This document shows, piece after piece, positions 4,029-36,014 of a stretch of DNA of 36,014 bases (positions are counted from its first letter, which is position 1; each line of letters opens with the position of its first letter). The DNA is from a virus. The stretch is from positions 1 through 36,014 of IMG/VR virus record IMGVR_UViG_3300030099_002455. One strand, 5' to 3'. Below the pieces are notes generated by a model. It was not told the origin of the DNA. It did not search any database and worked only from the letters and a program-made list of their open reading frames with translations. The translations under genes and the position numbers were made by a program.

Positions 4029-5553
4029 TCGCGTTCTCCATTTGTCGTGAAATTGCCTCGATGACATTCGGACCAGCCTGCTCGGCCAAAGCCTGCTGCT
4101 GGGACTGCTGCATCATAGCCGCAATTTCTTCTTCGGTTCTCACAAGTCCGTCAGTGTCGATGCCTAATGCAGACGCTCGACGGTCCATGTATTCTCTGAT
4201 ATTGATGTACTGACCCAGAACCTGCGGTCCAAGAACCTGCGCAATTCCTGCAAGGTAGACATCTAGCTTATTCAAATCGTTTCCTCGACCAAGGGCCTCA
4301 ATGCCGGTGATGATCGCGGGTGTGACTTTATCTCTTGGGATCTTGGGGAGCTTCTTGGTTCTCTCCATGCGATCCATAATTCTGTTTACGAGGGGGAGTT
4401 GGAACTCTTGACTCAGTACTGAGTAGATGCCCCCGAGTTGCCTTTCGATTGACTGCGTTACGAGTCGGACTTCTTCGGCCGTAACACGATCTGCATTACG
4501 AATTGTTGATTCAGTAAGAAGGAATGCGTAAGAAAGACGCTCTGTAATTTGCTGCATCGTGCTGAGTGAAACCGAGAAATCATTCGATTTGTTTGTTTGC
4601 AGAACAGTGACATCATTGGCGGTTCCCTCTCGGATTGCCCCATTGGGAGACTCGGCGAGTGTCCTCGCACGGGTTGTTCCATTCGGATTAACGAGGAACA
4701 GGACCTTCGAGGCAGCAGCAGCTCCCTCAACAATCGCCTTGGTCAGCCCCTCAAGACTGGCGAGGTCTCCATAATACTGTTCAATGTAGCCTCGACCATA
4801 ATCTTCACCATCCACCCTCATCATTCGGAGGGCAATAAATGGCGAAGTACCTTTCTTGAATTTTTGCTTGGTCTCTTCGATGACCTTGCCGCCGACCTCT
4901 TGAGTGATCTCAACACTGCCATCAGGCATGAGTTCCTGTTTTGTGTAGAGGTCAACGCTGTCTTCATATTCCGCGATGTTTGCTTCCACATAACTCCGGA
5001 TCTCCTCCGGGAGAACGATCGGAGAAATGGACTCCTTCATGATGATGCACATCGGAGTTCCCATGGGATCTCGTTTTACGATGTAGCGATCCAAGTGGAT
5101 CACCCGCATGGGTCCTTCTTCAGGCAGATATAGGAGTACGTTTCCAGTGACGACGAGATGCCGTAGGGCCTCGAAGGTCCCCACGCGGATGTTATTGACT
5201 TCAATCTCGCGGGCGACCGCTCTTTCAATTTCAGAGAGGGAGGACTCTACTTCGGTTTGAATTTTGGGGTCGATCGCCGCGAGCTTATCCTTTTCGCGTT
5301 TATCCAACACGAGCCGGAAAAAGGGAGAATTAGGGGGTAGGAGAGATAGGAGGAGGGCGGAACTCAAATTAGAAACGCCTCTGGCTCCTACACTTTGATA
5401 TGGGGTTTGGAACTTTTGAGAGCCGTTCTTACCCTCATCCGTGAGGATGGTGGGGATCGTGAGGCGAGAGGAGTCTCGACCCCTTTGGAGGTAAGGAGAT
5501 CGCTGAGACTCACACTTCGCGTACATCGACGCAATGGAACCTTGCTCTAACAT
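4021..5553 (-). CDS. Head-to-tail connector / portal protein (T7 gp8-like)
   Basis: This is the dodecameric ring at the unique vertex through which DNA is packaged and ejected. At 510 residues it is close to T7 gp8 (536). Family features include GARGVSNLSSALLLSLLPPN and FFRLVL near residues 55-80, FEALRHLVVTGNVLLYLPEE, and the late segment LTESTIRNADRVTAEEVRLV near residue 360. A TAGGA ribosome site lies 7 bases before ATG 5553. It follows the gp7.3-like gene by 9 bases and overlaps the scaffold start, consistent with stoichiometric co-translation in head assembly. Confidence 0.95.
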   Translation of the reverse strand: MLEQGSIASMYAKCESQRSPYLQRGRDSSRLTIPTILTDEGKNGSQKFQTPYQSVGARGVSNLSSALLLSLLPPNSPFFRLVLDKREKDKLAAIDPKIQTEVESSLSEIERAVAREIEVNNIRVGTFEALRHLVVTGNVLLYLPEEGPMRVIHLDRYIVKRDPMGTPMCIIMKESISPIVLPEEIRSYVEANIAEYEDSVDLYTKQELMPDGSVEITQEVGGKVIEETKQKFKKGTSPFIALRMMRVDGEDYGRGYIEQYYGDLASLEGLTKAIVEGAAAASKVLFLVNPNGTTRARTLAESPNGAIREGTANDVTVLQTNKSNDFSVSLSTMQQITERLSYAFLLTESTIRNADRVTAEEVRLVTQSIERQLGGIYSVLSQEFQLPLVNRIMDRMERTKKLPKIPRDKVTPAIITGIEALGRGNDLNKLDVYLAGIAQVLGPQVLGQYINIREYMDRRASALGIDTDGLVRTEEEIAAMMQQSQQQALAEQAGPNVIEAISRQMENANG

Positions 5554-12640: not shown

Positions 12641-15025
12641 CGATCGAAGCACATCTTCGATATTCAAACTTCCTCTCGGCGGAAGTTCAGGTAATGATAC
12701 TGTCGATGGAAGCTGGCACGCAAGTTGGTTGGCGAGGATCTCCATTTGGTTCTGCGAGAACAGTTTCACAGTTGACTCACGGATGCACTCGTGAAGAACA
12801 TCGACGTTACTCGCGTGGCAACTGATTGAATCGTGAACGTCCTTGATTTGATTGATGCCCCGCGAAGAAGCGGTGTTGACGATCTCTCCAAGAAGACCTC
12901 CGAGCCCGTCGATACTGTGAATGAAGTTCGCACAAATTGCGTTGACGGTTTTTCGTCGATTTGTTTTTCCATTCGGCACGCGGATGCGATGTTGTCGAAG
13001 GGTTCCCCCGACGAGAGTCTTCACCGCTTGTTTGTTTGTCTTTTCGTACAGCATCTTCACCGGAAATCCCAGTGGAGTAACCCATCTCGGAGTGATCTTG
13101 TTATCTACAAATAGAGTTGCACATTTCCGGAGCCAGTCCATCCCAACCCGGGCGGCATGCACCTGCTCGTCGATGCTTTCCCAGATGATCCGTGCCAAAA
13201 AGTTACACGGACGGTAGGTTTCATCACCAAAGGGATTCTGTTTCCCGGATTTCAGTTGATCGTAGAACCAATCCGCCGTGTAGGTCCGGCAACTGTAGAA
13301 CGTGGATCCATACACCAGTGTCATCGTAGGTCGTTTTGTGGCGCGTGAATCCACTCCGAAATCAATCCAGCGTTTAGCATAAGGATCATCGGATGATTTC
13401 AATTTTCGATTCACGATCTCAGCGACCGCCCCATAAATGCTTCGAGGTCGATCACCCGGAGTTACATTCACCGACTCCGCACCCTTGGGATCCAGCAGCA
13501 ACATGCTGTAAATCTGAAGCCCTTGGTTGGTCGCATCCATCGAAATCGGAAGAGTAGATTTGAATGAAGATCCCTGATCGTGCATCTTCGAGATCTCGGA
13601 ACAGGTCGCTCGGAACATCCAAGGATCTTCTGCGTCGGTCCAAGTGAGGTTGTCGTGAGGAGATCGACCGATTGATTTGATCAATTCGATATTCTCTTCC
13701 GCCCACTTCAATCGATCTTTGTAAGGTTGTTTATCCAATCCCCACTTGGACGCCGCCGAGACGTAGAGCCACATGGCTCCTGAATCCGTTATCGGTTCCC
13801 CACTCGAAAAACGCAGAAGTGATTGGACGTAACTGGGTCCTTGGTGCTGCAAAAAATTCGGAACAGAATATCCTCGACCCCGGAAATCCACCTGACGTAC
13901 AAACGAGAGTTCATCTTCGTGAAATTTTTCACAAAGGTTCATCACCCTCATCACCTGTATTCGTTTGGATTTCATTCGTTCATTATCGAAATGAACCCTC
14001 GCCGCCCGACGCCTCCACTTCGCCCGTGATTCAGCGTTGTGTGAAATGTCGCTGGGTTTGTTCGGAACCGGATCATCTTCGATTGACGGGACGCCATCAA
14101 CCGGGAGGTTCCGATCCCAGCACGTCTTCAAAACATCGAAAGATTCAGGATCGATGCGATACCTCACACGCTGCACCGTGTTCAGGGCGTCGTAAAACTC
14201 CGGCATGGGGCATGCCCCAAGCTCTTCGAGAAAGGATTTATCGAGAGTCTTGACGAGCGGACGACGCCGGAATCCCATACTTGAGTAACCCCCGATGTAT
14301 GGATTATTCCAATCCACCGCAGGCTCGACGCTGGGTAGCCACACCGGGTTCAGCGGTTCACGATAATCGTGGGCGGACCGCATCCAATCGATCAACTCGT
14401 CGGTCGCCTTCACGATCGTATAGGTTTTACCGTTTGGATCACGTCGAGTTACTGTTTCGATGATCCCCGTGGACTGACGCAATAGTTCAATGCAAGTGAG
14501 GCCAACAGAAGCGGCTTCTTCACGCGACCAAATCGAAACCACCAGCTTGTGGTATCGAATGGTTTTGTTCATGAATTTCGATCGAGATTTTTTGGAAGTC
14601 TGTTTGGATAACTCTCGATTGATCTGGTTCCACAACGCAGGCTCGTCTTCTTTCACCTTCCGCCATTTGATTTCGTCCTCGATCAACCGGCCGATTGAGA
14701 TCGCCGTACTCGCAATCTTTTTTTCTTCACTGATGCAATCGATGATGGCTTGCGAGGTCAATCCGGAAACAATCGTAGGAGGCAACTGCGACAGGAGCGG
14801 ATAGGCACGGTGTCTTCTCCCCGGCGTTTTCTTCGCCATGCGCAGCCAGTTCTTCAAGGCGGCTGACATTAGTCCGATCGATTCACTCAGCAGATGTTGG
14901 CCGACTCCCGTCGTGGATTCCAGAGATGTTTCCCTCGCTCGTTTTATTTTGTGGAGGTATCGATCCCTCCCGAGCGCAACCATCTCGTCTTCGATTTTCG
15001 ACTGATTATTTTTTTTGAATGACAC
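12620..15025 (-). CDS. Single-subunit DNA-directed RNA polymerase (T7 gp1-like)
   Basis: This phage RNA polymerase is expected to transcribe the middle and late genes. Family landmarks, in order, are VDFRGRGYSVP near residue 380, the palm Asp in LPISMDATNQGLQIY near 497, the fingers/O-helix equivalent RATKRPTMTLVYG near 562, WVTPLGFPVKMLYEK, and the second catalytic Asp in IKDVHDSISCH near 745. The C-terminus LNIEDVLRSNYYF matches LNLRDILESDFAF of T7. GTG 15025 (801 residues) was preferred because it gives the usual roughly 11-residue lead before the conserved DEMVALGRDRY and has GGA 7 bases upstream. ATG 15067 would give 815 residues but has no ribosome site. T7 has 883 residues. Confidence 0.96.
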   Translation of the reverse strand: MSFKKNNQSKIEDEMVALGRDRYLHKIKRARETSLESTTGVGQHLLSESIGLMSAALKNWLRMAKKTPGRRHRAYPLLSQLPPTIVSGLTSQAIIDCISEEKKIASTAISIGRLIEDEIKWRKVKEDEPALWNQINRELSKQTSKKSRSKFMNKTIRYHKLVVSIWSREEAASVGLTCIELLRQSTGIIETVTRRDPNGKTYTIVKATDELIDWMRSAHDYREPLNPVWLPSVEPAVDWNNPYIGGYSSMGFRRRPLVKTLDKSFLEELGACPMPEFYDALNTVQRVRYRIDPESFDVLKTCWDRNLPVDGVPSIEDDPVPNKPSDISHNAESRAKWRRRAARVHFDNERMKSKRIQVMRVMNLCEKFHEDELSFVRQVDFRGRGYSVPNFLQHQGPSYVQSLLRFSSGEPITDSGAMWLYVSAASKWGLDKQPYKDRLKWAEENIELIKSIGRSPHDNLTWTDAEDPWMFRATCSEISKMHDQGSSFKSTLPISMDATNQGLQIYSMLLLDPKGAESVNVTPGDRPRSIYGAVAEIVNRKLKSSDDPYAKRWIDFGVDSRATKRPTMTLVYGSTFYSCRTYTADWFYDQLKSGKQNPFGDETYRPCNFLARIIWESIDEQVHAARVGMDWLRKCATLFVDNKITPRWVTPLGFPVKMLYEKTNKQAVKTLVGGTLRQHRIRVPNGKTNRRKTVNAICANFIHSIDGLGGLLGEIVNTASSRGINQIKDVHDSISCHASNVDVLHECIRESTVKLFSQNQMEILANQLACQLPSTVSLPELPPRGSLNIEDVLRSNYYFNI

Positions 15026-15119: not shown

Positions 15120-15146
15120 GGAGTTCAAATCCCTCCTCCGGTACCA
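15120..15146 (+). other. Probable phage attachment site (attP), tRNA-Leu-like 3' end
   Basis: On the plus strand the sequence GGAGTTCAAATCCCTCC followed by TCCGGTACCA reads like the T-loop (TTCAAAT), 3' T-stem and acceptor strand of a tRNA ending in CCA. The upstream half does not form a full tRNA and the 5' T-stem pairs poorly, so this is a tRNA fragment, not a gene. Integrases commonly target such 3' ends, and this one lies about 100 bases downstream of the integrase stop. An acceptor strand ending CTCCGGTACCA fits a tRNA-Leu whose position 1 is G (wobble pair), as in leuU of E. coli; the identity is tentative. Confidence 0.7.
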
Positions 15147-17243: not shown

Positions 17244-17341
17244 GATTTACCCTTGTCCACGGCGGATACCCCGTACCCGTTCGTCGTGATTGATTCTGCG
17301 ATATCGCGGATGATCGTGATGATGGTGCGAATGATCTTCAT
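17240..17341 (-). CDS. Very small ORF (33 aa) bridging two early genes
   Basis: This ORF reads MKIIRTIITIIRDIAESITT followed by a short polar end. Its ATG overlaps the stop of the preceding gene as ATGA, and its TGA overlaps the ATG of the following gene in the same way. It therefore fills exactly what would otherwise be a 95-base gap, and AGGTGA lies just upstream of its ATG. The isoleucine-rich first half could form an amphipathic or short membrane helix. Translation is suggested by context only. Confidence 0.5.
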   Translation of the reverse strand: MKIIRTIITIIRDIAESITTNGYGVSAVDKGKS

Positions 17342-17964
17342 GCTTCACCTGCTTTATTCATTGAATAGCCGCCGACCACTTCGACCATGGCATCCAGTTT
17401 GTGCGAGACGGTCCGATCTTTTTTATTCCCACCGATCGAGGGGTGGAATGTGAATCGCACGATACTAGAGAACCCGTCATGGATCGTATCGACTGGCAGG
17501 AGGTTGGTTCCGTTGATGATCACATCTCCGGGTCGGATATCTTTGGCGTACTTGTAGGTCTTGTCACCCAATGTGATGACCCGGTCCCGATTCGCTTGAA
17601 AGATGATTTCCACGAACTCGTGTTCCAGCCGGATTTTTATATCGGCCCGCTTGAGAGCTTTCTTCACGGTTCCCTGGGACACGCCGTACTCTTTGGATAG
17701 ATCCCAGAGGCCGATGCCGTTGGAATACTTTTCGGCAATCTCCTCCTCTTTACCCAGTAGCTTAGTTACCCGGTATCGGCGGGCTTGGCTGTCAATGATC
17801 CTCTGGATAGGTCCGGGAACGAATCCGTCACCCTTGCCCGCGATGCGGTCCAGAATCCAGATCAACTGGTGGTCCGGTATTTTTTCCCGGCAGTCATCGG
17901 ACCGATTCCGTTCGGATGCTTCGGCAGCAATGGCCTTGATGGTTTTCAGTGTTAGGTCTTTCAT
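17338..17964 (-). CDS. HTH-containing early protein sharing a segment with DNA polymerase
   Basis: The 208-residue protein can be read in three parts. Residues 1-75 are helical and charged. Residues about 80-110 form a resolvase-like helix-turn-helix (GLWDLSKEYGVSQGTVKKAL). Residues from about 112 begin LEHEFVEIIFQ, encoded by DNA 33/34 identical to the DNA polymerase gene. A beta-rich part follows (YAKDIRPGDVIINGTNLLPV, then TVSHKLDAMVEVV) that loosely recalls Hint/intein-like domains; that resemblance is weak. ATG 17964 has CGGAG upstream and follows a leader shared with the neighbouring genes; the frame to 18015 runs through that leader and is rejected. DNA binding is likely; its target is unknown. 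Confidence 0.75.
   Translation of the reverse strand: MKDLTLKTIKAIAAEASERNRSDDCREKIPDHQLIWILDRIAGKGDGFVPGPIQRIIDSQARRYRVTKLLGKEEEIAEKYSNGIGLWDLSKEYGVSQGTVKKALKRADIKIRLEHEFVEIIFQANRDRVITLGDKTYKYAKDIRPGDVIINGTNLLPVDTIHDGFSSIVRFTFHPSIGGNKKDRTVSHKLDAMVEVVGGYSMNKAGEA
17596..17629 (-). repeat. 34-bp dispersed repeat, early-gene copy
   Basis: This is the partner of 8939-8972, with 33 of 34 identities, same strand and same reading frame. The one difference changes Ala to Val. Flanking bases diverge quickly on both sides, which suggests capture of a small polymerase-gene fragment or gene conversion rather than an old domain duplication. Confidence 0.95.
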
Positions 17965-17995
17965 GGTGTTTCTCCGTTGATTGTTTGGGAAGGGT
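17965..17995 (-). repeat. Early-gene leader repeat, copy 5
   Basis: Minus strand CCCTTCCCAAACAATCAA then CGGAGAAACACC and the ATG. It is the most diverged copy of the leader found before the four upstream genes and most like copy 4; it contains the ribosome site of the HTH protein. Confidence 0.6.
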
Positions 17996-18451
17996 TCAGA
18001 CCTTGAGGGCTTCAATCAATTCAGCATCGGACATATTCTTGATCCAGTCCGCTACCGGGTCGAGTTCCTCACCGATTGCCAGAAGCGTACTCGTGTCGAT
18101 ATCGGGGGAGTGTTTCAGGATGGCAGACAGGATGTCATTCCCGCTCGGGCGGGATTCGATGCCCTCGATGTAGGCGTTGATCTCTCGCCACAGTTCACGC
18201 TTTGCAACGTGTCCGTGGCTGAATACGTTACGCTCCCCGCCGCCTCTCGTCATCTGACACAGGTTCCAGCCGCCGTATGCCCCGGAAAGGGTATAGGTTC
18301 CGGCGTTGACGACGGCCCGATTGCGGCCTTCTCTCGTCTCTCGTGCAATCGTCCCATCATCGTTTAGTTTGTACGGTTCCTCCGCGTGACCGGTGATGCG
18401 GTTCAAGTATGCGATTCGTCGCCTCAAGTCTGCTTTGGTGATGCGGTCCAT
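17996..18451 (-). CDS. Hypothetical early protein (151 aa)
   Basis: The first 95 residues follow a pattern I have seen in hypothetical phage proteins: an N-terminal helix (LRRRIAYLNRITGHAEEPYK), then NAGTYTLSGAYGGWNLCQMT, then VAKRELWREINAYIEGIESR. This suggests a small alpha/beta domain. The last 50 residues (ILKHSPDIDTSTLLAIGEEL...) are acidic and helical. AAAGGAG lies 7 bases before ATG 18451, within a repeated leader. The function is unknown. Confidence 0.8.
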   Translation of the reverse strand: MDRITKADLRRRIAYLNRITGHAEEPYKLNDDGTIARETREGRNRAVVNAGTYTLSGAYGGWNLCQMTRGGGERNVFSHGHVAKRELWREINAYIEGIESRPSGNDILSAILKHSPDIDTSTLLAIGEELDPVADWIKNMSDAELIEALKV

Positions 18452-18500
18452 GGTGTTTCTCCTTTGAGTGTTTGGGAAGTGTGGGAACTGTTGGGAACGA
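18452..18500 (-). repeat. Early-gene leader repeat, copy 4
   Basis: Minus strand CACACTTCCCAAACACTCAA then AGGAGAAACACC directly before the ATG, preceded by a second TTCCC-containing unit. Shares CACACTTCCC and TCAAAGGA with copies 1 to 3. Confidence 0.8.
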
Positions 18501-19013
18501 TTAGACGCAATCCCAGTAAGTCTTTACGAATTCGCCATCTACGACGTGACCACAAGTCATGTTCCCGTGATGATTCGTATACACGGCATCGCCAGTGTAT
18601 CCCTCGGGCAATGCTTGCCCATTGTCGTCGAATGACACGAGCTCTCCATCATCGATTGCGTTCTGGATTGACTGAAGATCAGGCCAGACCCCCAGAGATG
18701 CGCCATCGTCTTCATGCGTTCCCAAATAGCAGTATGGTGGGACGTGGTGAGTTTGTAGGTGGTCGATAACATCGCTCTGGATCTCTTCGAGAATTTCGTG
18801 GGTGACGCGGGATGGCCATTCGTACTGCTCTGGGAGGGTGTCTCCGATAAACTCGAAAACGAAGCCCCGGGACCTCAGTTCGCCGTAGACTAGAAGAGTT
18901 CTTCTATGATCGACGTGCATCAATTCCCAGAGAAGCGCGCTGAGAGTTTCATTGATGAGAAGGGTGTTCTCGATGATGGGGCCAATGGAAAGCGTGGCCT
19001 TTTCGGTCTTCAT
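18501..19013 (-). CDS. Hypothetical early protein (170 aa)
   Basis: This acidic protein has an N-terminal helical part (TLLINETLSALLWELMHVDH) and a C-terminal part rich in Asp, Gly and His (YLGTHEDDGASLGVWPDLQS, then HGNMTCGHVVDGEFVKTYWD) that looks beta-rich. I know no function. AAAGGA precedes ATG 19013 in a conserved leader. Its composition resembles that of the next upstream protein, and both end with a Trp/Tyr- and Cys-containing segment. Confidence 0.8.
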   Translation of the reverse strand: MKTEKATLSIGPIIENTLLINETLSALLWELMHVDHRRTLLVYGELRSRGFVFEFIGDTLPEQYEWPSRVTHEILEEIQSDVIDHLQTHHVPPYCYLGTHEDDGASLGVWPDLQSIQNAIDDGELVSFDDNGQALPEGYTGDAVYTNHHGNMTCGHVVDGEFVKTYWDCV

Positions 19014-19056
19014 TGTGTTATCCTTTGAGCTATCGGGAAGTGTGGGAAGTGTGGGG
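19014..19056 (-). repeat. Early-gene leader repeat, copy 3
   Basis: Minus strand contains CACACTTCCC twice in tandem, then GATAGCTCAAAGGATAACAC and the ATG. The core is shared with the leaders ending at 19707 and 19923. Confidence 0.9.
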
Positions 19057-19059
19057 GAT

Positions 19060-19707
19060 TCAATAATCCGCGTTACATTCTGGGTGACAGACCACCGCCT
19101 GCCCTGTCGCCTTTAGTGTAGTGTGGAATGCTCCGTCGATCCATTCGCCGCCGTCGATGTGGTCCTCCAAATGACATGTCGGATTCGGATCCCATCCGGA
19201 ACGGAATTCACCCGCCTCATCGACGCATTCACCATCTTGATCGACCACATGCCATCCGATCATCCAGTCGAGGAAACCGATCTCCGCCAGATTGTCCGCC
19301 TTGAAGGCGACGCATCCGCCATAGTTGCCCCTCGCGTCTCCTCCTCGGTGAAGACAGACGACGACGTAAACATCATCCCTGTAGTACCATTCGTCCATCT
19401 CCCCATCTCGGGTGTAGATGGAGAATGTGAAGATAGAGGAGAAGTCCTGCTCATGGTTGTACACGTTCTCACGGCAAGCATGGACGTATTCATCGTCTTC
19501 AATGGCGTTGATCGCATCAAGCACATCTTGCTCATGATCCCATCCGTGGAATCCCTCGTCCCAAGATGGGACGCATTCGGGAAGATCCAGATCGACGGAT
19601 TCTCCGAGCAGGGAGTGTAGCCACACTTCCGTGTTGATGCTCGCGTCGCTCATCCATTCGCTACCATTCTCGGGGGTGAGAATCATGGGTTCGGTTTGGT
19701 TTCTCAT
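19060..19707 (-). CDS. Hypothetical early protein (215 aa), acidic, Cys/His/Trp-rich
   Basis: The protein is strongly acidic and unusually rich in Trp, Cys and His. Its central part, FTFSIYTRDGEMDEWYYRDD then VYVVVCLHRGGDARGNYGGC, matches a pattern I recognise from hypothetical proteins of many phages; Cys and His are spread through the C-terminal half (CHLEDHIDGG, VCHPECNADY), so metal binding is possible. No enzymatic role is established. GAGGAG precedes ATG 19707 within the repeated leader. Confidence 0.8.
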   Translation of the reverse strand: MRNQTEPMILTPENGSEWMSDASINTEVWLHSLLGESVDLDLPECVPSWDEGFHGWDHEQDVLDAINAIEDDEYVHACRENVYNHEQDFSSIFTFSIYTRDGEMDEWYYRDDVYVVVCLHRGGDARGNYGGCVAFKADNLAEIGFLDWMIGWHVVDQDGECVDEAGEFRSGWDPNPTCHLEDHIDGGEWIDGAFHTTLKATGQAVVCHPECNADY

Positions 19708-19748
19708 CGTGTTCTCCTCTGAACTATCGGGAAGTGTGGGGAAGTGTC
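19708..19748 (-). repeat. Early-gene leader repeat, copy 2
   Basis: Minus strand ACACTTCCC and CACACTTCCC in near tandem, then GATAGTTCAGAGGAGAACAC and the ATG. It overlaps the stop of the 58-residue gene by two bases. Confidence 0.9.
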
Positions 19749-19923
19749 AATGGCCGAGCCAAGTGAGTAGAACGCCGGGGCCGTGCGGGTCGTCTCCGAG
19801 TTTCTTGCAGTCCGCCATGAACTCATCCAATGCGATTGTGAGATCATCAAATCCGTGTCGATCCAGTTCGGAGAGGATCTCGACGATGCTCGGTCGATGC
19901 TCGCGGGCGTCTTCGTAATTCAT
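19747..19923 (-). CDS. First early gene, hypothetical protein (58 aa)
   Basis: The ORF begins MNYEDAREHRPSIVEILSEL and ends HGPGVLLTWLGH, a small helical protein with mixed charge. AAAGGA lies 7 bases before ATG 19923, inside the repeated leader, and a sigma70-like promoter lies about 55 bases upstream, so this is the first gene of the early transcript. Its size and place fit host-takeover proteins of T7-like phages, but no family is recognised. Confidence 0.75.
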   Translation of the reverse strand: MNYEDAREHRPSIVEILSELDRHGFDDLTIALDEFMADCKKLGDDPHGPGVLLTWLGH

Positions 19924-19965
19924 GGGGTGTCCTTTGATCTATCGGGAAGTGTGGGCGGGAAGATG
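19924..19965 (-). repeat. Early-gene leader repeat, copy 1
   Basis: Minus strand CTTCCCGCCCACACTTCCC, then GATAGATCAAAGGACACCCC and the ATG. It is the first of five related leaders and would lie at the 5' end of the early mRNA. Confidence 0.9.
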
Positions 19966-19976
19966 CCCATGTCCTA

Positions 19977-20005
19977 ACAGTAACTACATCGGTCGGTGGT
20001 GTCAA
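19977..20005 (-). promoter_or_regulatory. Candidate early promoter (host sigma70 type)
   Basis: Minus strand TTGACA (20005-20000, perfect -35) is followed after 17 bases by TACTGT (19982-19977), a 3 of 6 match to TATAAT with the key T, A and final T. It is placed just before the first early gene and just after the last late-region structures, as expected for host-polymerase-driven early transcription. Confidence 0.6.
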
Positions 20006-20030
20006 GTCTCTGAAGGGAAATTCGGGAAGA

Positions 20031-20065
20031 ATGCAAAAAAACACCCCGACCGAACCACGGCAGTC
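20031..20065 (-). terminator. Possible terminator at the late/early boundary
   Basis: On the minus strand CACGG-ACTG-CCGTG forms a hairpin, followed by GTTCGGTCGGGGTG and a run of seven T (20037-20031). The T-run is about 14 bases from the hairpin, further than in a standard intrinsic terminator. Its place just before the early promoter nevertheless suits the end of the late transcript. Confidence 0.4.
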
Positions 20066-20081
20066 CGTGAAAATTTTCACG
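20066..20081. promoter_or_regulatory. 16-bp perfect palindrome, candidate operator
   Basis: CGTGAAAATTTTCACG is its own reverse complement. It lies about 60 bases upstream of the -35 box of the early promoter. Such a site could bind a dimeric regulator; its outer CGTG also overlaps the neighbouring hairpin, so it may instead be part of the terminator structure. Confidence 0.5.
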
Positions 20082-20276
20082 AATGACATGGTCGCCGGTC
20101 CCCATCTTAGAGGGATTCCAGATCCCCCCTCGATGCTACTGGTGAAGTCTCCGGGGGCCCGGTGTGTCTCGGAATGTGCCCGCTCGGATCTTATTGACAA
20201 TCCGATGTCATTAGGGGGCCCCCACGGGGGCAACTGTGCGATTTGCGTTCTTGTGTTGGGCTGTCAGATTTTTTGG
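20082..20276. other. Non-coding gap with G/C-rich inverted repeats
   Basis: I find no credible gene here; the open frames crossing it lack ribosome sites. It contains GGGGGCCC twice (about 20152 and 20214), the hairpin GCCCC-CGTG-GGGGC on the minus strand near 20216-20231, and CGGAT...ATCCG around 20185-20204. It separates the last late-region ORF from the early promoter. Confidence 0.6.
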
Positions 20277-33648: not shown

Positions 33649-34270
33649 GATTTAACCTCGCAAATTCATAGAATGTTCTTTTATTTGGGCCGTGAGTTAT
33701 TTCTCTAATAAACTTGAATCCCAACCATTTGATCCACTTTATGTGGACCTCGTTTCTCTTATCGACAATGTTACACACCATTTCATAGGGCTCAATCAAG
33801 ATCGGGAAGAACAACTTCGTCCACTTCAAGAATGATATCGGAGCCCCATCAGTCACATCATCAGTTCCCAGAAGCCAGATAGATCCCCATTTTGGGTTCT
33901 CTTCAAAGGGGACGACACCAAACATCGCCATCGGAACTCCTTGATACTCGCCCGTATATGAGTGAGGCTTGGAGCCGAAGAAACTCTCTTCGATTGCTTG
34001 CTCCGGTACACGACCCAAGGCTTCTATTTCATCTAGGTCTGCTTGACGTAGGTTTTGAGAAATGAAGCCGACATCTTCATAAACAGAATTCCTAGTGATC
34101 ATATCATTCACGATTGAATAACAGGACGGCAGAGAACTCTTGTAGCCCATCATCAATGAATCAATAGGTCTGCTGTTGGAAGAAGCACTGATCTCCATGC
34201 AATCAGCTTTTCGCATGTGCGTAGATACATGGATTAGATCTTCAGGCAGAGACTTTCTAATGTAAGTCAT
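33641..34270 (-). CDS. gp13-like protein with GNAT-type (DUF2833) fold, partly duplicated
   Basis: The 209-residue protein occupies the T7 gene 13 slot. Its second half matches the DUF2833/GNAT-like pattern of such proteins: VPMAMFGVVPFEENPKWGSI, then WLLGTDDVTD, then a helix and NEVHIKWIKWLGFKFIREI. The family is used in virion assembly, and acetyltransferase activity is not demonstrated. The N-terminal 50 residues (LPEDLIHVSTHMRKADCMEI) look like a diverged copy of residues about 64-115 (VYEDVGFISQNLRQADLDEI), giving an internal repeat. T7 gp13 has 138 residues, so the extra length fits the duplication. Its ATG overlaps the gp12-like stop. Confidence 0.8.
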   Translation of the reverse strand: MTYIRKSLPEDLIHVSTHMRKADCMEISASSNSRPIDSLMMGYKSSLPSCYSIVNDMITRNSVYEDVGFISQNLRQADLDEIEALGRVPEQAIEESFFGSKPHSYTGEYQGVPMAMFGVVPFEENPKWGSIWLLGTDDVTDGAPISFLKWTKLFFPILIEPYEMVCNIVDKRNEVHIKWIKWLGFKFIREITHGPNKRTFYEFARLNHV

Positions 34271-36014
34271 ACAGTCTTCTGGGATCGGGAAGTATAGAAA
34301 GCCTCGAACTCGATTGATTGGATATTACTGGGCAATGGTGAATCATTCAAGATTTCTATCTTCACGTTTGTGGACTCGGCGAACATGGGGAAACGGAACT
34401 TGCCAGTCTCAGATGGAACCGATCCAAGGAAGCCTCCGGACGAAAGGAACCTACCGCTAAAGGGATACTCGACCGGATCAGTAAACTGACCCCCTCCGGT
34501 CTTGGTGCTGTATCGGACCTTGAAGAATGCGGTCTCATCAAAGACAACCGTCATGTATCGCAATTGGTGTCTCCCCACGGAAATCATCTCATAACCCCCG
34601 CCGTCTTTAGGACGCTTCAGTACGGGAGTCGTAAGCTCATATCGCATGGTGTAGGGCAGACCCACAAAGAACACTTCGCTCGCGGTAAACTCCTCGGATA
34701 GGGTTACCGTGTTGGTTCCTTGAGATTCGATAGTACGCACTTCCCCGGTTGAGTCGCAGACCTGAACTGTATCTCCGCTCTCAATATCGTAAGGAAGATT
34801 GATGACAGTTCCTCCGGCAGGAGATCCGGCACCATTACCAATAATCTTTGCTCTTCGATCCAACAGGGTGGTGTACTCAGCTCCCTCATCCACCAGACCT
34901 GTTTGAAGATCCATTCGCTCAATAAAAGTCTTAGATCCCCGCTTGATGATCATGAACATCGACTGCTGAATGAAATCGATATCAATCAACTCGCAGTTAG
35001 AGAACGTGAACTTGTACCAAGCCGACTGAAGACGCCCTCTCTCTGTTGAGAAATACTTGTAGAAGTACAGCTCATTGGTTGGGTTGGAGGTTGATCCGGT
35101 TTGAGTTCTGGACAGGACTGCTAGAGTATCCTCCATAGTCGAGATCGCCATCTTTTGAATCTCACCCGCGATGTACTTCGGAGCTTGAGATGTAACTTCG
35201 ACAGCGTCAAAGTTAATGTCGGTCTCGTTAGTTTTGAAATACTCTCGGATGCCACTAAAGCTGCCGCGATTGAAAGCAAAGAATAGGTTGCCGCCCGACC
35301 TTACCGGGTTGACTCCAGTCAGTACATCAAAGTTTGTTACAGGAGTCACTGAGGCAGTAAGCGGGCTGAGAACCCCGTCTCCTCTCAATGCAAACTGAGC
35401 CCTATCAGAGAAGAGCATGAGCCTATCACTGAAGGGGACCGATGCAGAAATCTTATTGATTTCCGTTCCACCAACTCCCACATCAATCACTGCGGTATCA
35501 AGAAGGTTGGTGGAGGTAATCCTGAAGAAGTTGAATAAGAATCCGGCTTCACTTAAAGCGCAGTTCTCACCGCTAGTGAGTGCCAGACGGTTCTTGAAAA
35601 ATGAAATGGATGTAATCTTCTTACCGACGAATGAGGGCAGGGGGTTAGTGAGGTCATCCCCAGATTCTCGATCAGTAAATTTATACTGAGTCCAATCAAC
35701 GCTGGAGTCATTTCCCGTACTAGGAGCTGCACCATCGGCGGGCTTCACTACAAATGTCCCATCCGCTTGACGGACAATAATTTGAGGCATAGTCCCCGCA
35801 TCAAACGTGGTCTTGACTCCGGGCTTAGCGACTTCTTCCCATGAGCCTTCTTCTAGTTTGGTGTTGTCGGGGGTCGTTGCATTAGAAATAAATTTGACGT
35901 AGTAGTCATCGACCTCGGATTCAGGATCCCCCTCGATCTTCACAATCATCCCGTGTCGAGCAATGGAAGGTAAATCAGAAAAACTATTTACGGAATCTTT
36001 GATAACTTTGGAAG
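34267..36014 (-). CDS. Tail tubular protein B (T7 gp12-like), C-terminal part; joins 1-786 across the contig ends
   Basis: This is the remaining 560 or so residues of the nozzle protein whose start is at 786. Bases 35938-36014 repeat 1-77, so on the circle the gene is 786 to 1 then 35937 to 34267. Visible features include GNDSSVDWTQYKFTDRESGD, the segment VPFSDRLMLFSDRAQFALRG near the middle typical of gp12, and a beta-rich end (SIEFEAFYTSRSQK). Its stop overlaps the gp13-like ATG. The ORF is intact, with no frameshift or stop. Confidence 0.95.
   Translation of the reverse strand, partial: SKVIKDSVNSFSDLPSIARHGMIVKIEGDPESEVDDYYVKFISNATTPDNTKLEEGSWEEVAKPGVKTTFDAGTMPQIIVRQADGTFVVKPADGAAPSTGNDSSVDWTQYKFTDRESGDDLTNPLPSFVGKKITSISFFKNRLALTSGENCALSEAGFLFNFFRITSTNLLDTAVIDVGVGGTEINKISASVPFSDRLMLFSDRAQFALRGDGVLSPLTASVTPVTNFDVLTGVNPVRSGGNLFFAFNRGSFSGIREYFKTNETDINFDAVEVTSQAPKYIAGEIQKMAISTMEDTLAVLSRTQTGSTSNPTNELYFYKYFSTERGRLQSAWYKFTFSNCELIDIDFIQQSMFMIIKRGSKTFIERMDLQTGLVDEGAEYTTLLDRRAKIIGNGAGSPAGGTVINLPYDIESGDTVQVCDSTGEVRTIESQGTNTVTLSEEFTASEVFFVGLPYTMRYELTTPVLKRPKDGGGYEMISVGRHQLRYMTVVFDETAFFKVRYSTKTGGGQFTDPVEYPFSGRFLSSGGFLGSVPSETGKFRFPMFAESTNVKIEILNDSPLPSNIQSIEFEAFYTSRSQKTV
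35938..36014. repeat. Terminal direct repeat, right copy (circularisation overlap)
   Basis: This is an exact copy of 1-77. Removing one copy closes the circle at 35,937 bp. Confidence 0.95.

Follow-up and report, generated by a model that had tools for sequence, protein, structure and literature searches.

Start-associated sequences (SAS) of phages were described in 2011, and a role in translation has been proposed for them, which a 2025 account called untested (PMC3203893, PMC12699233). In the cluster K mycobacteriophages they are reported as short repeats near the starts of many unrelated, non-structural genes, nearly all in one orientation, lying a few nucleotides from the start and containing the Shine-Dalgarno sequence, with 11-19 copies per genome; about half of them have upstream inverted repeats (ESAS), thought by their authors to be DNA-protein sites (PMC3203893, PMC12699233). 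Direct repeats, short and in tandem, are also reported immediately ahead of start codons in marine Beggiatoaceae, where TAACTGA units occur in 169 sets in a bacterial chromosome, usually without a Shine-Dalgarno sequence, and where S1, Csp or Csr proteins were proposed as binders (PMC4679880). Here we describe related leader sequences that precede five consecutive minus-strand genes, all within 19962 to 17973, of the IMG/VR virus record IMGVR_UViG_3300030099_002455 (36,014 nucleotides, analysed as a whole and hereafter called the window). The closest known kind of element is the cluster K SAS. Among the papers listed in searches of an open-licence library, none described repeated leaders for T7-like phages, a result that does not prove their absence.

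The phage is T7-like, with its RNA polymerase, integrase and terminase identified and its long open reading frames (ORFs) on the minus strand. The order on that strand is terminase, two small ORFs, a terminator-like hairpin, the five leader-bearing genes, a 33-amino-acid ORF, genes 6-8, integrase and RNA polymerase, and it is from this order that we take the five genes to be early genes. As the first-pass annotation had claimed, all five are preceded by related leaders, built on one plan: one to three units of (C/G)TTCCC, then a box (GATAG or AAACA), TCAAAGGA and the start. Leader 1 (19930..19962, CTTCCCGCCCACACTTCCCGATAGATCAAAGGA) precedes gene 1; leader 2 (19715..19746, CACTTCCCCACACTTCCCGATAGTTCAGAGGA) abuts the stop codon of gene 1 and precedes gene 2; leader 3 (19021..19053, CACACTTCCCACACTTCCCGATAGCTCAAAGGA) precedes gene 3; leader 4 (18460..18498), before gene 4, has three TTCCC units and then AAACACTCAAAGGA; and leader 5 (17973..17994, CCCTTCCCAAACAATCAACGGA), before gene 5, is the most divergent of the five. 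The 3' part reads CACACTTCCCGATAG-N-TCA(A/G)AGGA in leaders 1-3 and CTTCCCAAACA-N-TCAA(A/C)GGA, with no GATAG, in leaders 4 and 5. The near-tandem arrangement noted at first pass holds for leaders 1-4, with 2, 2, 2 and 3 CTTCCC/GTTCCC units at spacings of 13, 10, 9 and 10+9 nucleotides, and leader 5 has a single unit. The division into three similar and two divergent copies likewise stands for the GATAG box and needs correction for CACACTTCCC, which is absent from leader 5 only: its five copies in the window all lie in leaders and on one strand (one each in leaders 1, 2 and 4, two in leader 3), and leader 5 holds only CCCTTCCC in its place. The distance from CCC to the GGA of the ribosome site is exactly 11 nucleotides in 5/5 leaders, despite changing letters between, and that from GGA to ATG is 6, 7, 7, 8 and 8 nucleotides in leaders 1-5.

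Chance is excluded as the source of this repetition. The window holds eight copies of CACTTCCC, six of them in leaders, against 1.4 expected on both strands, a number reached in none of 100 shuffles; CACTTCCCGATAGNTCAAAGGA, allowing three mismatches, has three copies where none is expected, all in leaders, and this search found no full leader copy elsewhere in the window. An 8-mer and a 10-mer are each common to four leaders, which none of 2000 resamplings of five 50-nucleotide leaders matched. CTTCCC alone is not strand-specific (16 copies on the minus strand, 15 on the plus strand), and lone TTCCCGA sites occur in coding sequence. The earlier statement that more than a Shine-Dalgarno sequence is shared was right. 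As with the SAS, a start-tied repeat stands in one orientation before several unrelated genes (5/5 leaders); unlike the SAS and ESAS, it is tandem, rich in pyrimidines and CA, and without an inverted repeat, and the SAS consensus GGGATAGGAGCCC has no match in the window at up to two mismatches.

The genes led in this way are not relatives of one another. In an all-against-all blastp comparison of 11 window proteins, which included the five, no homology was found (best E 0.07), and therefore the leaders are not the flanks of a tandem gene duplication, an origin that we disfavour. Genes 1 (19747..19923, 58 amino acids) and 2 (19060..19707, 215 amino acids) gave, respectively, no family and no clear family in Pfam or PHROGs; gene 2 has a weak match in locus L070 (30% over 56 amino acids), which starts within the preceding gene and has no leader. 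Gene 3 (18501..19013, 170 amino acids) has a homologue in locus L016 (37% over 168 amino acids) that stands behind a different leader, GGCCCTTCAAGGCCCAAACACAGGAG; a second L016 gene is similarly led, and two further ones carry CCAACCCCAACC-type leaders. Gene 4 (17996..18451, 151 amino acids) has homologues in Methylophilales phage MEP301 (38% over 98 amino acids), at the very start of its record, and in locus L004 (30% over 99 amino acids, not re-found at E 0.001 in a larger set), where it stands behind a different leader that recurs before a second L004 gene. From these sequences, the leader seems to follow the genome, not the gene. Growth of the early block by duplication, as suggested at first pass, is thus not borne out, and the shuffling of cassettes named alongside it is compatible with the homologues of genes 3 and 4 standing behind other leaders.

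It could be argued that such copies have little or no function beyond the ribosome site and spread, unselected, as recombination joints or by gene conversion. Leaders 1-3 are indeed very alike, the leader type seems to go with the genome, and promoter and stem-loop joints are said to mediate the shuffling of genes in T4-like phages (PMC4503421). However, leaders 4 and 5, diverged in letters, retain CTTCCC, TCA, GGA and the 11-nucleotide spacing, the composition of the leaders is extreme and consistent, and in other phages the corresponding position holds repeats with different letters; we regard unselected spread as improbable.

The composition was compared with that at 37 other starts of the window, listed by hand. 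Per 25 nucleotides the leaders have 2.2 G against 6.4 and 12.6 C against 5.4; ACA occurs 2, 3, 4, 4 and 2 times in leaders 1-5, against a mean of 0.76 (p 0.0002), and CTTCC is also enriched. At positions -45 to -21 the probability of being unpaired is 0.56 in the leaders and 0.43 at the other starts (p 0.005). An open, ACA-rich stretch, as an enhancer of the ACA or S1 type would need, thus lies upstream of the Shine-Dalgarno sequence, partly paired in leader 1. No hairpin is common to the five leaders, whose folding against shuffles gave z-scores of -1.9, 1.2, -0.1, 0.3 and -0.9, and no inverted repeat with 6-base-pair (bp) arms occurs more than twice in the window. These folding results bear on RNA processing, which the first-pass annotation had listed among its options. 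Sites at which an endonuclease cuts between genes, for processing or for RNA stability, would suit the position between consecutive early genes, and RNase III sites occur in T7 early mRNA; lacking a common hairpin, the leaders give this option no support and we disfavour it as most improbable.

We therefore favour, from the fixed spacing, the single orientation, the anchoring to starts and the CA/pyrimidine make-up, a role in mRNA and in translation: the leaders would be a putative, genome-specific, start-associated translation leader, a CA/pyrimidine enhancer joined to a Shine-Dalgarno sequence and spread among early cassettes, a reading to which we give a probability of about 0.5. Each copy would act in the mRNA, probably that of a single early operon, where a largely single-stranded, G-poor, CUUCC- and ACA-rich stretch ending a fixed 11 nucleotides before the GGA of the Shine-Dalgarno sequence would offer the 30S ribosome a standby or enhancer landing site, with ribosomal protein S1 or a comparable protein that binds single-stranded RNA as the probable contact, letting each of the five genes begin translation independently. 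The 33-amino-acid ORF and genes 6-8, which come next and overlap the preceding gene at their starts, have no such leader. The leader would be a property of the genome and not of the gene, the same local version being carried by early cassettes that are unrelated, and copies would have spread through recombination between repeats and then been kept by selection. Such a common translational enhancer is, of the options named at first pass, the best supported, the copies being anchored at starts, rich in ACA, poor in G and less paired than other leaders, and the pelagiphages offering a direct-repeat analogue. In Salmonella yifK and dppA, a CA-rich stretch with several ACA triplets likewise stands directly before the Shine-Dalgarno sequence, and mutation showed that these motifs enhance translation; unlike the present leaders, these enhancers have been tested experimentally and are not described as repeated before neighbouring genes, and their activity is reported to need no strict distance, whereas 11 nucleotides are kept in the window (PMC3879156). 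The Beggiatoaceae repeats, for which S1-type binders were proposed, differ in their chromosomal setting and in usually lacking the Shine-Dalgarno sequence (PMC4679880).

Several observations weigh against this reading. No leader stands before the integrase gene, the RNA polymerase gene or the gene after it (12610), and gaps precede the integrase and RNA polymerase genes too. That the overlapping genes have no leader is confounded with a lack of room. CAA is not enriched in the leaders over the other starts (p 0.13), the Shine-Dalgarno sequence itself is no more open (unpaired 0.56 against 0.52, p 0.82), the difference in total folding energy is small (p 0.054), and leader 1 folds somewhat better than its shuffles, with its C-rich stretch partly paired. 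The composition tests were chosen after the sequence had been seen, on five related copies and hand-picked starts. Finally, the letters of the leaders are not conserved: in 225 other loci, searched at up to four mismatches, they were met once each, with 2-4 mismatches, in L028, L135 and L225 and nowhere repeated.

The leaders and their surroundings give no support to repeated promoters, whether host or phage, which had also been proposed. Leader 2 fits TTGACA-16-GATAGT at 10/12 positions, and intergenic repeats of halovirus HF2 are reported to carry promoters (PMC8707807). Yet most of the TTGAC in leader 2 belongs to the end of gene 1, a sigma-70 scan lists nothing at leaders 1, 3, 4 and 5 (one site found against 2.7 expected), and no full copy stands before late genes, as a promoter of the phage polymerase would need, the nearest thing being a lone CTTCCCGAT (34291) close to the late-gene start at 34270 and inside the end of the preceding gene. 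Repeated promoters are accordingly disfavoured and very unlikely. A possible host promoter before leader 1 (19977..20005, minus strand: TTGACA, 17 nucleotides, TACTGT) was read by eye, has a weak -10 and is unlisted by the scan. Just upstream of its TTGACA lies a CTTCCCGAATTTCCC pair (20013..20029, minus strand) that partly resembles the leaders, and further upstream of leader 1 stands the terminator-like hairpin with a T run (20048..20065, minus strand), a kind of site that is not above chance in the region. A palindrome, TTCGTGAAAATTTTCACGGA, lies just before the terminator (20064-20083), with a near copy (three mismatches) at 13916-13935 in the RNA polymerase gene; these are the pair found in the inverted-repeat search of the window.

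The relatives were gathered by terminase and RNA polymerase alignments, in three lists of 80 loci among the matches listed; single-protein patterns gave none for RNA polymerase and one distant locus for gene 4. The presence of the motif in relatives, on which the first-pass annotation had staked its proposal, did not hold in the 225 loci, where the slot and the repetition are kept and the letters are not. An IMG/VR search with a 19-fixed-letter pattern of the full leader found no place, and two further leader patterns found one and three places, single matches of which none had a ribosome site and start after it within the 60 nucleotides shown. What occupies the slot instead is an inverted repeat: 23 of 172 loci hold one with 6-bp arms at least three times, against 1 of 516 resampled sequences, in a survey that counted overlapping contigs apart and included many loci too short for the early region. 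In these 23 loci, 110 of the 147 copies lie no more than 45 nucleotides before a start with a ribosome-like site, and the letters are peculiar to each phage or small group and nearly uniform within one phage. Inverted repeats, mostly with 6-bp arms and a short spacer, were read before early ribosome sites in L213, L216 (minus strand), L095, L196, L186, L187, L103, L023, L102, L109 and others, and several of these phages have a copy also before the RNA polymerase gene and before the gene after it.

Nine close relatives were defined by RNA polymerase identity of at least 51% and an early region of at least 3.5 kilobases (L095, L177/L213, L179/L216, L183, L186, L187, L188, L196 and L209). Eight of them have a 6-bp-arm inverted repeat at least three times, and L209 has three copies of a shorter one. 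By a loose automatic rule, 35 of the 55 copies precede a start, with at least two doing so in 8/9 relatives and one of four in L183. Five of eight carry their own inverted repeat within the coding sequence of RNA polymerase, where the codons nearly coincide but the letters differ (L095 at 7859, L177 at 3299, L179 at 7625, L183 at 6413 and L196 at 7266), although L177 has it in the other orientation and L183 and L196 share their letters; in L186, L187 and L188 none of the listed copies lies inside this gene. Because of these copies, the inverted repeats look like protein sites, operator-like and belonging to a phage-specific trans-acting factor rather than elements for the ribosome, and they may be the larger finding; the ESAS of cluster K offer a parallel, with inverted repeats likewise standing upstream. 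The positions of TTCGTGAAAATTTTCACGGA in the window resemble those of the relatives' repeats, but at other codons of the RNA polymerase gene and not in the leaders.

Two of these relatives offer a link to the window. In L213 and L095 the spacer between inverted repeat and ribosome site is G-free and mostly pyrimidine in 8/9 cases with a start, and the L095 spacer, CTTCCACACTTTCT, is much like CCACACTTCCC of the window; the window, an outlier in this respect, may therefore have kept the part adjoining the ribosome site and lost the inverted repeat. These spacers speak for the translation reading, but over six relatives G is missing from only 13 of the 26, which tells against that reading. Relatives were assessed by the inverted-repeat survey and by reading of their leaders rather than by a survey of shared 9-mers, in which only 5 of 50 loci have five or more shared leaders and in which four shared leaders are weak evidence because shuffles reach four (once five) and late regions reach four; in L113, one of these five, the top 9-mer differs from the inverted repeat. 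Ahead of the leader-bearing genes, seven inverted-repeat phages have an early ORF of 220-280 amino acids (L213 3207-3995; L216, minus strand; L186 575-1423; L023 4209-4976; L097 19-696; L104 4202-5035; L107 1559-2407), and four that were scanned gave no Pfam family above cut-off. A helix-turn-helix reading of the first early protein of several relatives, as a DNA-binding regulator, was not confirmed by Pfam, leaving it a candidate reader only. In L023, arrays of the leader repeat in reverse orientation were seen by eye near sigma-70-like promoters (about 4147-4160 and 5052-5082).

The operators named at first pass deserve consideration beside these protein-site-like repeats. The L5-type stoperators are described as asymmetric sites of 13 bp that lie in short gaps and follow the direction of transcription, numbering more than 20 genome-wide including operators and having a known repressor (PMC9283540). 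By this comparison CACTTCCCGATAG would be a putative 13-bp asymmetric site at which a phage repressor halts host RNA polymerase in the short early gaps during lysogeny, and it shares with the L5-type sites its length, asymmetry, single orientation and place in short intergenic gaps. The phage has an integrase and a candidate repressor, the 208-amino-acid protein of gene 5 (17338..17964, minus strand), with weak helix-turn-helix matches below Pfam cut-offs and a PHROG 'DNA binding protein' match at E 6.7e-6; its predicted structure was of low confidence (mean pLDDT, the model's own confidence score, 49) and was not used. The pair CTTCCCGA...TTTCCC (20029-20013) stands just upstream of the possible promoter, and the near relatives hold phage-specific repeats resembling protein sites in the same slot. 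The window, however, has only three full and two partial copies, the latter without GATAG, all in leaders, with no copy inside the gene for RNA polymerase; they keep a fixed phase to the ribosome site; their units repeat at 9, 10 and 13 nucleotides; and the window has in TTCGTGAAAATTTTCACGGA a separate palindrome before the terminator with its near copy in the RNA polymerase gene. We consider stoperator-like sites unlikely, though they are the main rival to the translation leader. Dispersed 17-bp inverted repeats are also reported from cluster O phages (PMC4351075).

An independent case of direct repeats in this position comes from the early regions of eight pelagiphages (Eistla, HTVC019P, HTVC022P, 021P, 105P, 109P, 201P and 131P). 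Six of them, all but HTVC109P and Eistla, have tandem ATCA/AATCAAC repeats directly before ribosome sites. Of the annotated genes in these six, 28 of the 41 that follow a gap of at least 30 nucleotides carry the repeat, and 0 of the 33 with a smaller gap. The six phages are related to one another, the pattern was fixed once the regions had been read, and where there is no gap a leader would not fit. With a stricter pattern, 26/26 copies lie no more than 45 nucleotides from an annotated start, none on the other strand, in gaps of 57-491 nucleotides. HTVC109P has the ATCA/AATCAAC-type repeat at 0/11 genes, and Eistla (L093) has tandem (CAAA)n directly before the ribosome site at 3 of 13 starts (before 3312, 3883 and 4382).

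The record itself has a G+C content of 49.8% and is probably a complete, circularly permuted genome because a 77-base direct overlap joins its ends (1-77 equals 35938-36014). Most of the best 30 matches listed among phage records belong to roseophages and pelagiphages (terminase 57-63%, RNA polymerase 31-35%). Searches of the 36,014-nucleotide window for RNA families and for tRNAs gave no match. Between the integrase and RNA polymerase genes, at 15120-15139, a stretch resembling the 3' end of a tRNA gene, GGAGGAGGGATTTGAACTCC, is possibly an attachment site, and L095 holds a similar stretch in the same place.

From this phage and its relatives it would seem that what persists is the slot rather than the sequence, and that the sequence is common to unrelated genes of one genome. 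More broadly, and as a tentative proposal that we hold to be doubtful in its full form, T7-like phages with exchangeable early genes may use a genome-specific start tag, either an inverted repeat or, as in the window, a tandem direct repeat, carried by those early genes that are separately initiated, to which an incoming gene would be rewritten and which a phage-encoded factor would read, giving a private early-gene code that varies by phage while the slot stays constant. Cultured pelagiphages with a similar arrangement make the question testable, among them HTVC022P, for which an infection transcriptome has been published (PMC12753301). If the leaders enhance translation, they would be ready-made expression parts and would explain the immediate expression of newly acquired early genes; if a phage factor reads them, they would add a new level to the early control of T7-like phages.

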